DNA from: Desulfovibrio sp.
GTDB lineage: Bacteria; Desulfobacterota; Desulfovibrionia; Desulfovibrionales; Desulfovibrionaceae
Length of the DNA: 46,158 nt
Assembly (NCBI GenBank): GCA_031260965.1
Contig: JAISKK010000003.1
Location: forward strand, 1-46,158
Reading direction: 5' to 3'
The translations under genes were made by a program, and so were the position numbers. Positions 2,749 to 25,274 of the stretch are shown piece by piece (the stretch's first letter is position 1; each line of letters starts with the position of its first letter). The notes beneath the pieces were generated by a model. The model had not been told where the DNA came from. It ran no database searches and worked only from the letters and a program-made list of their open reading frames with translations.

Positions 2749-2856
2749 TCCGCTTTTCAGGTTCCGGGAACCCAATTGAAAAAGTGGAACATAAATTGCA
2801 TAAACTCCGACAACAGTAAAAAATTGCCCCTGCGGGGGGGAAATAAGGAGATTGCC

Positions 2857-3465
2857 ATGATTGTTATAGACGGACAGGAAAGCGCGCTTTCGCTTTCCAA
2901 TTATGCCAATCTGGAGGAACTGCTGGTCAAGGTTATCGAGGAAGAAGGCCTTGGCGACCGTATTGTCACGGATGTGCTGGTGGATGACGAGGCTTTTTCC
3001 GAGCTCTATCCCCATCAGGCCGAGGATATCGAATCCGACGGCTTCAGCCGCGTGGAAATACGCACGGTGTCCGCTGACCAGATGGCGGGAGATATTGTCG
3101 AAGAACTGCCCAAAGTAATCAACATCATGGCCGTCGGCAGCCGCCGGGCGGCGGAACTGCTGCGCGAGGCGGATCTGTCGGAAGGTCTTGAAGTGCTCCA
3201 GGATATTATCGCGGTCAGCCGGGAACTTCTGAACACCATCTATGTTCTGCGCAGCCAGTATTCGTCCGGTCCATGTCGGGAGCTTGACGCCATGTCCGAG
3301 AGCCTCGGCGATTTGCTGGGCGAGATTGCGGACGTTATGAGCAATGAAGACTGGATGCTGGTCGCCGATTTGCTTGAATACGAATATGTACCCGCCTGCG
3401 AAGGCTGGCGTGGAGTTATCGACGCCCTGGAGCGGGATGTGCGCGCGGCGAAAAAGGCGGCCTAG
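2857..3465 (+). CDS. Conserved-looking protein of unknown function, 202 aa
   Basis: An acidic, mostly helical soluble protein (MIVIDGQESALSLSNYANLEELLVKVIEEE...). It has no signal peptide or membrane segment. The N-terminal 80 residues look like an alpha/beta domain and the rest is helical with many Leu and Glu (VLQDIIAVSRELLNTIY; DLLGEIADVMSNEDWMLVADLLEYE). I recognise no catalytic motif. ATG 2857 follows AAGGAG at ideal spacing; the ORF-track start 27 codons upstream is in non-coding sequence. It is followed after 18 bp by another small helical protein, so the two are probably co-transcribed. A link to flagellar export or assembly is possible but only a guess. Its TAG stop lies inside a palindromic repeat. 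Confidence 0.75.
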   Translation: MIVIDGQESALSLSNYANLEELLVKVIEEEGLGDRIVTDVLVDDEAFSELYPHQAEDIESDGFSRVEIRTVSADQMAGDIVEELPKVINIMAVGSRRAAELLREADLSEGLEVLQDIIAVSRELLNTIYVLRSQYSSGPCRELDAMSESLGDLLGEIADVMSNEDWMLVADLLEYEYVPACEGWRGVIDALERDVRAAKKAA

Positions 3466-3498
3466 AGCAGATGAACGTTAAAAATGTATATCCGCTCC
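3463..3498. repeat. Dispersed palindromic repeat, copy 1 (degenerate)
   Basis: The segment TAGAGCAGATGAACGTT...AATGTATATCCGCTCC matches, arm for arm, the near-perfect palindrome at 21871-21909 and the right arm at 23866-23882. The arms here pair at about 11 of 16 positions. It begins with the TAG stop of the 202-aa gene and contains the first possible ATG (3484) of the next ORF in its right arm. This suggests an insertion at the gene junction that now supplies coding signals. Confidence 0.6.
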
Positions 3499-3879
3499 GC
3501 AGGGCGCTCTGAGATGTGCGCGATCGCGGCCCTGATCGACGAGGCCATGGCCTTGGCGCAGGAAGAAGGACAAGCCCTGTCGGATCAGGATGTGGACAGG
3601 GCCGAAGACCTTTCCCTGAAAAGAGCCAAACTTGTCAGGAAAATCATGGAAAGGGCCGCCGCTACGGCAGAGCCGGGGCAGGACGGAGAATTTGACCTCA
3701 GAGCGGCTTTGCTGCGTATGCGCACAGTCCAGGAAGAACTTCTGGACAAGGCGGAAAAGCTGCGCGATGACTTGCTCAGGCAACGCCAGACCGGGCGCAA
3801 AGTGACGGTCTATTTTGACGGGGACCGCCGCCTCAGTCAGGAAAACAAACGCGCTCTTTATTGCGACGCTTTATCCTGA
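3484..3879 (+). CDS. Small helical protein, unknown function
   Basis: A 131-residue hydrophilic, almost wholly helical protein. It has heptad-like stretches (ALSDQDVDRAEDLSLKRAKLVRKIMERA; LLRMRTVQEELLDKAEKLRDDLLRQ) and a short basic/aromatic tail (KVTVYFDGDRR). This shape resembles small secretion or flagellar chaperones of the FliT/FlgN sort, but no diagnostic motif is visible, so this is a weak inference. The start is uncertain. ATG 3484 falls inside a palindromic repeat and gives an atypical leader, MYIRSAGRSE. ATG 3514 (MCAIAALIDEAM) begins at the first helix and may be the ancestral start (121 aa). Neither has a strong ribosome site. It probably shares a transcript with the gene before it. 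Confidence 0.65.
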   Translation: MYIRSAGRSEMCAIAALIDEAMALAQEEGQALSDQDVDRAEDLSLKRAKLVRKIMERAAATAEPGQDGEFDLRAALLRMRTVQEELLDKAEKLRDDLLRQRQTGRKVTVYFDGDRRLSQENKRALYCDALS

Positions 3880-20650: not shown

Positions 20651-21826
20651 TTACAAAATCAACATGGCGTCGCCATAGGAAAAAAACCTGAAACCCAGGC
20701 GGATGGCCTCTTGGTAAGCGGAAAGGATGCGCTCGCGCCCGGCCAGGGCCGAAACCAGCATGAGCAGGGAGGATTCCGGCAGATGAAAGTTGGTGATCAG
20801 CCCGTCTATCACATGGAAAATCTGGCCGGGATAAAGAAAAATATTGACCGGACCGGCAAAGGGGACAAGTGCGTTTTGCTCCGCAAAAGCCGCCTCCAGG
20901 GCGCGCGCCGAGGTCGTGCCCACGGCTATCACCGCGCGCCCCTCGCTTTTGGCTTTTTGTACGGCTCCGGCCGTCTGGACCGGAATCTGCACATATTCCT
21001 CGTGCATGACGTGATCCCTGATGTCCTCGCACCGCACCGGGCTGAAAGTGCCGTAGCCCACATAAAGACTCAGTTCGGCCCATTCCCGTCCGGAGGCGAG
21101 CAGGGCCTCGCGCAGACCAAGAGTAAAATGCAGGCCGGCCGTGGGCGCGGCCATTGACCCGGTTTTGTCGGCGCGGGCGTAAACCGTCTGGTACCGCTCG
21201 GCGTCAAGATTGCGGGCGTCCAAAACGCCGGATTCCCGGGAAGTTGCGGCAAGGGCGGAACCGGCAGAACCGGCTGCCTGACGCCGGATATAGGGAGGCA
21301 GGGGCGTTTGCCCGAAACGCTCCAGCAGGGCGGACAGATCTCCTTTCCAGAAAAGGCGCAGACGTCCCCTGCCCCAGTCCCCGCGCTCCAGAAAAAACGC
21401 ATAAAAATCCGGGGCAAAACTGATGCGCTCCCCAAGGCGCAACTTTTTTACCGGACGCAGCAGGGCTGCGCATTCGACACTGTGCTCCTGCCCTCCAGGC
21501 GTCTTTGGGGCGCCGGGGGGGGGATTTTGCAATTCGTGCAGGGGAGGCGAGAGCAGAACCTCCACCCGTCCTCCCTGCTCCCGCCGGCCCGCAAGACGGA
21601 CCTTGACCACGCGCGAATTGTTGGCCACCAGCAGACATTTTTCCGGCAGACAGGTCAGGAGGTCCGAAAATAACCCGGTCTTCAGACCATCTTCCGTCCG
21701 GCAAAGAACCATAAGCCGGGAGGCGGAGCGCTCGGGCGCGGGTGTCTGGGCGATACATCGCGCAGGCAGGTCGTAGAAATAGCTTTGCCGCAAAAAATCC
21801 GCTTCCGGCTTGCAGTCCTTGTCCAT
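20651..21826 (-). CDS. queA: S-adenosylmethionine:tRNA ribosyltransferase-isomerase QueA
   Basis: Converts preQ1 at the tRNA wobble base to epoxyqueuosine, using SAM as ribosyl donor. It has about 391 residues. The family pattern is clear: YFYDLPARCIAQTPAPERSASRLMVL at the start, LLVANNSRVVKVRLAGRR, then MAAPTAGLHFT and LYVGYGTFSPVRCEDIRDHVMHEEYVQIP, VGTTSARALEAA, and ITNFHLPESSLLMLVSALAGRE near the end. A Pro/Gly-rich loop (HELQNPPPGAPKTPGGQEHS) is inserted in the variable domain. I prefer ATG 21826 (MDKDCKPEADF), preceded by CTGGAG, over the longer ORF. tgt, the preceding step, is also in this window at 28.4 kb. Confidence 0.96.
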   Translation of the reverse strand: MDKDCKPEADFLRQSYFYDLPARCIAQTPAPERSASRLMVLCRTEDGLKTGLFSDLLTCLPEKCLLVANNSRVVKVRLAGRREQGGRVEVLLSPPLHELQNPPPGAPKTPGGQEHSVECAALLRPVKKLRLGERISFAPDFYAFFLERGDWGRGRLRLFWKGDLSALLERFGQTPLPPYIRRQAAGSAGSALAATSRESGVLDARNLDAERYQTVYARADKTGSMAAPTAGLHFTLGLREALLASGREWAELSLYVGYGTFSPVRCEDIRDHVMHEEYVQIPVQTAGAVQKAKSEGRAVIAVGTTSARALEAAFAEQNALVPFAGPVNIFLYPGQIFHVIDGLITNFHLPESSLLMLVSALAGRERILSAYQEAIRLGFRFFSYGDAMLIL

Positions 21827-21870
21827 TCCAGTTTGCTCCAGGCGGTAAAACAACCGTCGGGGGCACAATA

Positions 21871-21909
21871 TTAGAGCAGATGTACATTTTCAATGTAAAT
21901 CTGCTCTAA
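21871..21909. repeat. Dispersed palindromic repeat, copy 2 (best copy)
   Basis: A 39-base palindrome. The left arm (TTAGAGCAGATGTACATT) and right arm (AATGTAAATCTGCTCTAA) pair over 18 bp with a single mismatch around a TTC loop. It lies between divergent genes (queA and the membrane-protein gene), so it is not a terminator for either. Related copies are at 3463 and 23849. I do not recognise it as a named element. Confidence 0.8.
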
Positions 21910-22001: not shown

Positions 22002-22772
22002 ATGTTTTTTTTCTTTTTAAAACTTACCCTTACTCCGCTGATGATTGCCATGGTAACTCTGACCGCCAGACGCTGGGGGCCGGTTGTGAGCGGCTTGCTG
22101 GTGGGTTTGCCGCTTACTTCAGGGCCGATATCTGTTTTTCTGGCTCTGGAACAGGATAAGACCTTTGCGGCGGAGTCGGCGCACAGCTCTCTTTTTGGGG
22201 CTATCGCAGTGGTTTTTTTTTGCATTGCCTATGCGCGAAGCGCTGAAAAATTCTCCTGGCCTGTGGCGGCAACTTTCGGGCTGTCCAGTTTTTTCCTTAG
22301 CGTCTGGCTGTTTTCAGGGTTGGCGCTGCCGCTGCTTCTGTCGGCCGCGCTGACTTTCTGTACGGTTGCGGCCGGTTTTTTTGCCGTGAAAAAGTCCACC
22401 GCAGCTTTCACCAACATAATGGCCCCCCGCTGGGATCTGCCCTTTCGTATGCTGACCGCGACCACGCTGGTACTGCTGCTGACCATGTTGTCGGAGCGCC
22501 TGGGACCGCGATGGGTCGGCCTGTTGTCCACATTTCCGGTCTTTATTACTGTGATGTCGATTTTTTCGCATGCGCTGTATGGTTTATCGGAGGTCAACCG
22601 ATTTGAGCGGGGCGTCATCGCCGGATCCTTTTCCTATATAATATTTTTTCTGTTGGTTGCTTTGTTGCTGCCGACGTGCAATATGCTGCTGGTCTATCTT
22701 GGAGCCAGCCTTGCCGCAGTCGCACTCAACTTTTCCCTGCTGCAACTTCTTACGCGCGTAAAGGCCGCTTGA
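22002..22772 (+). CDS. Polytopic membrane protein, unknown function
   Basis: A 256-residue integral membrane protein with about eight hydrophobic helices and very little soluble sequence. Two halves look related: TARRWGPVVSGLLVGLPLTSGPISVFLAL near the N-terminus, and SERLGPRWVGLLSTFPVFITVMSIFSHAL after residue 160. Each pairs a basic loop containing Gly-Pro with a helix and a short 'P..(S/T)..P/V..' turn. This suggests internal duplication, as in many small transporters. No transport family is recognised. The start ATG has a weak site. It sits between two palindromic repeat copies, directly upstream of a truncated hisC, in a segment with evident deletions. Confidence 0.7.
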   Translation: MFFFFLKLTLTPLMIAMVTLTARRWGPVVSGLLVGLPLTSGPISVFLALEQDKTFAAESAHSSLFGAIAVVFFCIAYARSAEKFSWPVAATFGLSSFFLSVWLFSGLALPLLLSAALTFCTVAAGFFAVKKSTAAFTNIMAPRWDLPFRMLTATTLVLLLTMLSERLGPRWVGLLSTFPVFITVMSIFSHALYGLSEVNRFERGVIAGSFSYIIFFLLVALLLPTCNMLLVYLGASLAAVALNFSLLQLLTRVKAA

Positions 22773-23106: not shown

Positions 23107-23840
23107 GTAAGGTGGACGAAAAATAATCCTTGCGTCAGGCGGAGAAGATGCTGGAGATGGTCGGCATACCGGGCGGACGCGCCGGGGAATACCCGCACCA
23201 GTTCTCCGGCGGCATGAAGCAGCGCGTGGTCATCGCCATCGCCCTTGCCTGTGGTCCTGCCCTGCTGATTGCCGATGAGCCCACGACCGCTCTCGACGTC
23301 ACCATTCAGGCGCAGGTTCTAAAGCTTATCAATGATCTCAAGGAGAAATCGCGGATGTCCATGCTCATGATCACGCATGACCTTGGGATTGTGGCGGAGG
23401 TCTGCGACGAGCCGGTCTCCGCTCTTGATGTTTCCATACAGGCCCAGATACTGAATCTTATGAAAAAAGTTCAGCGGGACATGGGCATTACATACATCTT
23501 CATCACCCACGACCTCTCTGTGGTCAAGCATTTTTCCGACGACATCGCGGTTATGTACCTGGGGCGCCTGGCCGAAAAAGCCCCTTCCGAGTCTCTTTTC
23601 GCCAACCCGATGCACCCGTATACCGAGGCGCTGTCGGCAATTCCCGTGCCGCGTATTCACAACCGTCCCGAGCGGATTATGCTCCAGGGTGAAATAACCT
23701 CTCCCATCAATCCCGATCCCGTCTGCCGCTTCGCAAACCGCTGTAACCATGCAATGGAGATATGCAACAAGGAAGAACCCCCTCTGCTTGAGGTGCGGCC
23801 ATCCCACTTTGTGGCCTGTCACCTTGTCCGGGATTTATAG
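23107..23840 (+). pseudogene. OppD/OppF chimeric remnant of a peptide ABC transporter ATPase
   Basis: From about 23107 the DNA encodes the middle of an OppD/DppD-type ATPase, with an in-frame TAA at 23124. It then continues as a 236-codon ORF (first possible start TTG 23130) with signature FSGGMKQR, Walker [15 protein letters not shown] and switch His [13 protein letters not shown]. At 23400-23411 it passes in frame into OppF sequence: [36 protein letters not shown] and the C-terminal family tail ([19 protein letters not shown] ... CRFANRC). It therefore has two Walker B/switch blocks, one signature motif and no Walker A, and cannot bind ATP normally. It is a deletion scar of an opp/dpp operon. 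Confidence 0.85.
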
Positions 23841-23848
23841 CGTCTTTA

Positions 23849-23882
23849 ACATCTGTATACATTTCCAATGTTTATCTGCTCT
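23849..23882. repeat. Dispersed palindromic repeat, copy 3 (right arm conserved)
   Basis: The right arm AATGTTTATCTGCTCT matches the repeat at 21871-21909. The left side is degraded, and only the inner TATACATT pairs well around a TCC loop. It lies at the junction of the opp remnant and lysA (convergent). On the minus strand its right arm forms the last two codons and stop of lysA (AGC AGA TAA). Confidence 0.6.
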
Positions 23883-25143
23883 GGTCCGGATAAACCCGGA
23901 GCAGATCCTCCAGGCAGTCTCTGCGCCGGACAAGACGGCAGCCTCCGTCGGCGCCGATCAGAACTTCAGCCGGACGCAGACGCTGGTTGTAATTGGAACT
24001 CATGGAGTGACCGTAGGCCCCGGCGTCCAGAATACCGACGATGTCGCCCTCGGCCAGTTCCGGCAGTTTCCTGTCTTTGGCCAGCACATCGCCGGTCTCA
24101 CAGATATTGCCGACTATGGTCTGGCGCAGCAGGGGACGCGGCCCCGGCAAGGCGGGGTAGACTTCCACATCGTGGAAGGAATCATAAATCATGGGCCGGG
24201 CCAGGACGGTAAAACCGAGGTCTGTGCCCACATAGCGGACCGGACCGTTGTTTTTTACCGCCAGGGTCGTGCCGAGCAGGATGGAACATTCGGCAGCCAC
24301 GTAGCGCCCCGGCTCAATGATAAATTTGCCGGTGAACGCGTGCCGCCTGCGAAAATTATCAAGCAGGACGTCGAAGCGGCTGCGGAAGTCGGCAAGATCG
24401 AGGCGCTGTTCGCCCTTGTATTTACGGTAGGGGATGCCGAAGCCGCCGCCGAAATCGATAAGCTCCAAACCGGGGAATTCGGCCGCCGTCTCCAGAAGCC
24501 AGCGCGCGGCCTCCAGATATGGAAGAGGGTCCATGAACAGGGAGCCTACATGCTGGTTAAGGCCTATGAGTTTCAGGTCATATTTCTTGAGAGCGACACG
24601 CATGGCCCCGAAATCTTCCGGGGTCACGCCGAATTTGGTGTTCTTGCCGGCCGTCACCACTTTGGAGCTATGTCCGGCCCCGATGCCCGGATTGACGCGC
24701 GCCATAATCTTGCCGCCCGGATTGACGCGCCCGAAACATTCAATCTGGGCGACGGAGTCCACGCTGACGTGGTCCGCTTTGGCATAAGCCAGGGCCAGTT
24801 CCTCGGAGCTTACATTGTTGCAGACATAACAGATTTGTTCCTTTTTGAATCCGGCCCGTTCAAGCAGGGCGACCTCTCCCGGACTCATGGCGTCGGCGAT
24901 CAGGCCTTCCTCACGGATGATGCGCAAAAGATGCGGGTTGCCGTTGGCCTTGGTTGAATAGCAGACCTTGAATCCCGCTTCGCCGGACAGGCCTTTCATG
25001 TCCCGGCAACGTGCCCGCAGGATGTTTTCGTTATATACATAAAGGGGGCTGCCGAAGTCGCGGATCAGGTCATGCGGGTTTTGCGCCCCGAAAAAATTCA
25101 GATCCGCGCTATAGCTGTTTCTAAGTGCTTGGCTTTCTTTCAT
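23872..25143 (-). CDS. lysA: Diaminopimelate decarboxylase
   Basis: The last step of lysine synthesis, meso-diaminopimelate to L-lysine, PLP-dependent. It has 423 residues from ATG 25143, which follows GAAGAAAAG; the ORF-track start four codons earlier is GTG. The fold-III PLP Lys lies in VCYSTKANGNPHLL (about K65). Other family blocks are GFKKEQICYVCNN, ARVNPGIGAGHSSKVVTAGKNTKFG, LNQHVGSLFMD, LIDFGGGFGIPY, IIEPGRYVAAEC, VGNICETGDVLAKDR and GAYGHSMSSNYNQRLRP near the active site. The last residues, DQSR, are encoded by a palindromic repeat, so the C-terminus has probably been remodelled. Confidence 0.96.
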   Translation of the reverse strand: MKESQALRNSYSADLNFFGAQNPHDLIRDFGSPLYVYNENILRARCRDMKGLSGEAGFKVCYSTKANGNPHLLRIIREEGLIADAMSPGEVALLERAGFKKEQICYVCNNVSSEELALAYAKADHVSVDSVAQIECFGRVNPGGKIMARVNPGIGAGHSSKVVTAGKNTKFGVTPEDFGAMRVALKKYDLKLIGLNQHVGSLFMDPLPYLEAARWLLETAAEFPGLELIDFGGGFGIPYRKYKGEQRLDLADFRSRFDVLLDNFRRRHAFTGKFIIEPGRYVAAECSILLGTTLAVKNNGPVRYVGTDLGFTVLARPMIYDSFHDVEVYPALPGPRPLLRQTIVGNICETGDVLAKDRKLPELAEGDIVGILDAGAYGHSMSSNYNQRLRPAEVLIGADGGCRLVRRRDCLEDLLRVYPDQSR

Positions 25144-25274
25144 GCTTTTCTTCACTGGGGTTGGAGTTTTTGCAGTTCATTAAACTGTCTGGGCGGACTG
25201 GTCAAGCGCCGCCAGTACCTGATTCACAGGTCTGCGTAGAAGTTTGCGGATCGGCTGCGGGATTTAAGGAAAAA

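Follow-up and report, generated by a model that had tools for sequence, protein, structure and literature searches.

The analysed stretch of 46,158 nucleotides from Desulfovibrio sp. (assembly GCA_031260965.1, contig JAISKK010000003.1; hereafter the window) carries three copies of a palindrome (Table 1). All three were originally predicted and all were recovered, at 3463, 21872, and 23883 (minus strand), as was the claim that one of them lies between divergent genes: the copy at 21873 is flanked by queA and an unnamed gene. This copy matches the pattern AGAGCAGATNNACATTNNNAATGTNNATCTGCTCT exactly over 21873–21907 and folds into a stem of 10 bp and 6 bp with one mismatched position and a loop of 3 bases (−19.3 kcal/mol, z about −7 to −8.2), a stability reached by 0/200 shuffles; its minus orientation was read from the loop GAA. 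The copy at 3464–3498 shows 3 mismatches to the pattern, while in the minus-strand copy at 23849–23882 one arm is kept (the left arm, AGAGCAGATAAACATT, is intact) and the right arm is gone. For ≤3 mismatches, the chance expectation in the window is 0.00.

Table 1. Features of the window. E1 is the repeat element described below, HP1 to HP3 are its hairpins, and R1 is its covariance model.
Feature	Position	Strand	Evidence and layout
Copy A, internally deleted E1	3463..3512	+	R1 31.1 bits, E 3e-6; HP1 at 3464-3498, 7 bases, right end GCTCT(GA); HP2 and HP3 largely lost
Copy B, solo HP1 palindrome between two TA	21872..21908	-	exact pattern; R1 36.5 bits
Copy C, truncated and decayed E1	23835..23883	-	R1 23.4 bits, E 3.3e-4
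queA, neighbour of copy B	20651..21868	-	TIGR00113/NF001140 above cut-off
Unnamed gene, neighbour of copy B, divergent from queA	22002..22772	+	NCBIfam matches weak, below cut-off

Across the 2.46-Mb genome, the 35-bp palindrome occurs 11 times with ≤3 mismatches as compared to 0 for a reversed-pattern control, and the half-site AGAGCAGATNNACATT with ≤2 mismatches yields 52 + 58 matches versus 1 + 0 in the control. The palindrome is a dispersed repeat, with chance ruled out. The original prediction had named a restriction to these three sites as the outcome that would speak against it; the genome instead holds 11 strict copies and 62 to 81 matches to the model R1. A tRNA reading was likewise rejected after a tRNA scan.

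E1, an element of three hairpins

Alignment of 33 palindrome copies from the relative G012 (Desulfovibrio sp. Kf353_bin37; another Kf353 bin has the termite Kalotermes flavicollis as its source, PMC11707648) revealed that most of them extend beyond the palindrome in one constant direction: a second hairpin GCAAGGATTTGCCGGCAAATCCTTGC is followed by a longer third one, and these copies close with the constant end AAGCGTAAAATGCTCTA. The same element, here termed E1, is present in the genome of the window itself (G000; alignment A1). Intact E1 is about 125 bp long, runs from GAGCA to TGCTC between two TA dinucleotides, comprises three successive hairpins (HP1, HP2, and HP3), and contains no gene and no open reading frame of note (alignments A1 and A2). 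The palindrome is its left-end hairpin, HP1. Of the originally proposed unit of 36–39 bases, the palindromes themselves are thus real, while the genomic unit is mostly larger and the window holds shortened forms solely: scanning it with R1 returned exactly copies A, B, and C, each an internally deleted or truncated E1, and these copies are remnants, that is, deleted or one-hairpin derivatives of the element.

At E≤1e-4, the covariance model finds 62 matches in the window's genome, and relaxing the threshold to E≤0.01 raises this to 81, of which about 25 are full-length and high-scoring and some weak ones represent the opposite strand of the same place. E1 was furthermore detected by R1 in 15/15 genomes of the genus, with up to at least 150 candidates listed per genome, and copy numbers in Desulfovibrio relatives range from dozens to well over a hundred. 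Among 120 genomes drawn from the order, 17 carry the element, 13 of them from one other genus of the same family (g23), in which it appears in genome-specific bursts of nearly identical copies (e. g., in genome G116). A comparison of E1 with plasmid and phage records gave no match.

All three hairpins are kept by compensatory changes. In 30 copies from two genera, 90.9% of the cells form standard pairs (79.7% after shuffling), and 165 cells are changed on both sides as compared to 55.6 in shuffled alignments and 16–33 in slid structures. Such changes occur in all helices, including those of HP2 and HP3, neither of which forms a transposon end. Lineages have thus retained the folded form or re-created it repeatedly. 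Within one genome, HP3 comes in two versions that can replace each other, GGAGCAGGCGGGC...GCCCGCCG and TTGCAAGGCGAATT...TTCGCCGTC (alignments A1 and A2), which suggests module exchange between E1 copies. In a further genome of the set (G004, contig C106), one copy has a gene for 6S RNA nearby (L182:1703-1885, minus strand; Rfam RF00013, 62.8 bits).

TA targets and a probable IS630-family partner

Recent copies are bordered by a T before AGAGC and an A after GCTCT (22/22 in G116, 18/19 in G012), while the outer bases vary. That TA is a duplicated target follows from two paralogous empty sites, one for an E1 within a transposase gene (L070 versus L110, with the right TA now TG) and one for an E1 inside another repeat (L075/L080 versus L054). 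Relative to the TA sites of the same genomes, insertions fall preferentially into YTAR (19/22 in G116, P 9e-15; 14/19 in G012, P 3e-11). IS630 likewise favours TA within 5′-CTAG-3′, as stated in the title of Tenzen and Ohtsubo (1991; via PMC2170065), and TA duplication has been observed for an IS630-family element in vitro (PMC2170065).

Two further repeats were noticed around these sites. One, with GGAGYCTGTCGGACTTT following TA at its ends (41 matches in G012, 0 in G000), abuts E1 exactly at the TA of the latter in G012 (e.g., in L053, L059, L062, L064, L066, L067, L072, and L074), which suggests that it inserts at the borders of E1. Many contigs end within this repeat. No transposase of the adjacent IS-X could be recovered. 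The other, E2 (AAAGCAATTTGATTTTGAGACGCCTCCTCCGGCGCTTAACGGCGAAAGC...GCATTTTCAATTTTGAAATGCTCTAA), has similar ends, hosts E1 insertions in G012 (e.g., in L054, L060, L071, L075, and L080), and is probably a second miniature inverted-repeat transposable element (MITE) of the same kind.

IS630-family matches were collected from eight genomes of the genus. Genome G005 contains, on contig C41 (locus L109), a 998-bp element of this family whose transposase (NF033545, E 5.9e-34 for its second part) has DD34E spacing as read from the sequence, and whose perfect 19-bp inverted repeats GAGCATTTTAACTTTGAAA stand beside TA; as its left end coincides with the contig start, the left TA is visible and the flank beyond is not. 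The transposase gene is divided between two overlapping frames, the overlap falling on eight consecutive A (L109:370-400), as though a frameshift produced the protein. E1 ends from G003, G004, and G005 match those of this element at 22–23/25 positions, left fitting best to left and right to right; given the base composition, 22/25 corresponds to a P of about 6e-11 to 6e-8. In the window, the palindrome-type sublineage is more diverged (19/25 at the right end, about 15/19 at the left). Even so, when all 2,449 TA contexts of the window are ranked against the 19-bp repeat, copy B comes out on top (21908, minus strand, 15/19), followed by copy A (3463, plus strand, 14/19), with the next context at 12.

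Among all loci examined, the G005 element alone has E1-like ends, the other inspected pairs enclosing ordinary genes, and it is also the one intact-ended IS630 of matching type that was seen. In the window's own genome, half a gene of a related transposase is accompanied by its end repeat GAGCAAATAACTCTTGAAA and runs off its contig; no complete partner was found there. The intact IS630 of the same genome (C103, L107) was rejected as partner on account of its unrelated ends (AAAACCGAATTTAGCC...), as were two G116 transposases of 363 and 381 residues with weak matches to IS630 models, whose ends are of another type (GTAGT...CTGACAGT) and look IS481-like. No significant hairpin was found at the end of the G005 element (z 0.4), and we therefore make no claim that HP1 was copied from the insertion sequence as a hairpin.

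Given the TA duplication, the YTAR targets, and the match of both ends, each on its own side, to those of the G005 element, the palindrome is very probably the left hairpin of a non-autonomous element of the IS630/Tc1-mariner family, a MITE moved in trans. This bears out the MITE-type reading among those originally offered, with a gene-less unit of about 125 bp, fixed ends, and a TA duplication. An IS630-family transposase supplied in trans would recognise about 25 bp at each end, excise the element, and insert it at a TA, with YTAR (CTAG) as the favoured context and the TA duplicated in the process; the copies would then decay. Mini-elements of ISY100, also of the IS630 family, are fully active with 30 bp of each end (PMC2170065), so that E1 should be equipped for use by such an enzyme.

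Solo palindromes and gene ends

HP1 without HP2, as at 21872–21908, was found in seven distinct places in G000 and G012, each time followed by A. For copy B, a deletion joining two TGCTCT sequences, one in HP1 and one at the right end of E1, would leave HP1 alone; copy A has lost most of HP2 and HP3, and copy C is truncated. The trailing A is predicted by such a deletion, and would be equally by transposition of HP1 alone. We consider deletion roughly twice as likely, which is a judgement, since the deletion in copy A is of an intermediate kind and, within as little as 33 bp, both ends could probably not be used; solo palindromes could nonetheless move by themselves or be of another origin.

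Several copies coincide with the ends of genes. In the window, two of the three supply a stop codon: TA together with the following G at 3463–3465 (copy A) forms the TAG of the reading frame 2776–3465, and copy C is the source of the TAA that ends a lysA-like gene (23872–25155, minus strand; lysA TIGR01048). The junction of target TA and first G of E1 likewise makes up the TAG of a neighbouring gene in the G000 loci L257, L003, L002, L256, and L253. In G116, where genes were called by simple scoring of reading frames and may be inexact, 16 of the 19 copies that have a called gene on both sides are flanked by a convergent pair (47/226 for intergenic YTAR sites, P 6e-9), and 9/22 provide a neighbour's TAG stop (YTAR non-coding background 28/254, P 3e-4); measured against CTAG sites, the stop-codon excess in G116 is not significant (P 0.10). 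The window's own genome shows no convergent bias (3 of about 20). As G is the first base at either end of E1, an insertion that hits the TA of a TAG or TAA stop re-creates TAG, and such TAG-regenerating insertion at gene ends, combined with purging elsewhere, explains the stop-codon pattern without a host function. The hairpins may have a role at transcript ends, and some copies may have a secondary role beside a mobile origin. More speculatively, and with rather low confidence, E1 may be a stop-codon-sparing mobile hairpin that is tolerated and perhaps recruited at gene ends, where it may protect or end RNA. If true, one transcript, or both of a convergent pair, would gain three covarying hairpins in the 3′ region.

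Alternative origins and known relatives

The most serious competitor accepts E1 as a TA-targeting MITE, has it moved, originally or now, by a transposase outside the IS630 family, and attributes the likeness of the ends to older shared ancestry. It draws on the g23 genomes, where near-identical and thus the freshest E1 copies occur in G116 and others in which no IS630 transposase of matching type was found. A transposase may, however, simply have been lost since the burst, and the end-specific matches to the G005 element as well as the IS630-like YTAR/CTAG preference speak against a different engine, which we regard as improbable. Considerably less credible still is a conserved cis-acting site, whether bound by a global regulator, acting as a terminator, or forming a structured RNA that serves the host. 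The dyad symmetry, the compensatory changes in all three hairpins, and the convergent neighbourhood of the fresh G116 copies would suit such a site, but fixed ends, TA duplication, nested insertions, and genome-specific bursts of near-identical copies would not. The binding site of a widespread regulator, one of the options first put forward, is disfavoured in the same way, as the copies are whole units of about 125 bp with fixed ends and TA flanks. An intrinsic terminator was rejected: HP1 is rich in A and T, the sequence behind it is GCAAGG or AATATT/AAATCG, and a run of T is absent after the stems. As for known terminator or riboswitch families, a match to which the original prediction had listed as counting against it, Rfam yielded none in the window at gathering score and none over the E1 copies at E≤1 with a credible score.

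Least probable of all, and hardly tenable, is the spread of single palindromes by a REP-associated tyrosine (Y1) transposase, also among the initial suggestions. The many intergenic palindromes, the REP-like solo HP1, and a single Y1 transposase gene found in the window's genome (L085) fit this origin. According to PMC3733652, most REPs bear a GTAG/CGTC tag at the foot of the palindrome; in all recent copies, however, the base before the stem is T and the stem starts with AGAGC, so that the element begins GAGC directly after TA and the tag is absent. Near the Y1 gene, R1 scores no better than chance (E 0.25), most copies are three-hairpin units, and TA target duplication with inverted ends is typical of DDE transposons.

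We thus return to an IS630-family MITE, for which, among known systems, the closest analogue is RUP, the Repeat Unit of Pneumococcus, of ~107 bp, with ends like those of IS630-Spn1 and ~100 copies (PMC3049150). RUP and E1 share a gene-less format of ~100 bp, IS630-like terminal repeats, target duplication, folded RNA, and an excess between convergent genes (PMC3049150). They differ in sequence and host, and RUP is AT-rich and simple where E1 has three hairpins; the likeness drawn here is one of features. With the autonomous IS630/Tc1-mariner insertion sequences (the G005 element, IS630, and ISY100), E1 has in common the TA duplication, the YTAR/CTAG preference, and the ends described above, but it lacks a transposase gene, and HP2 and HP3 have no recognised counterpart in them. 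Pneumococcal BOX elements are likewise modular, structured mobile repeats with variable parts, although their modules differ and their ends are linked to a different insertion sequence (ISSpn2). REP/BIME repeats of RAYTs resemble E1 as extragenic, palindromic sequences of many copies, and solo HP1 looks like one of them, whereas E1 has a TA duplication and neither the GTAG/CGTC tag nor an associated RAYT.

Searches of open-licence papers for Desulfovibrio MITEs, REPs, and IS630 elements found nothing on E1, which is apparently a MITE family left undescribed in such papers; it reaches high copy numbers in relatives of Desulfovibrio, termite-gut species among them. Judged by its sequence, it is a new family within a known kind. 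E1 accounts for many repeats in these bacteria and probably for some of the contig breaks. Its fresh bursts in complete genomes offer material for studying how MITEs choose their targets, how they decay to solo hairpins, and how hairpins are conserved.
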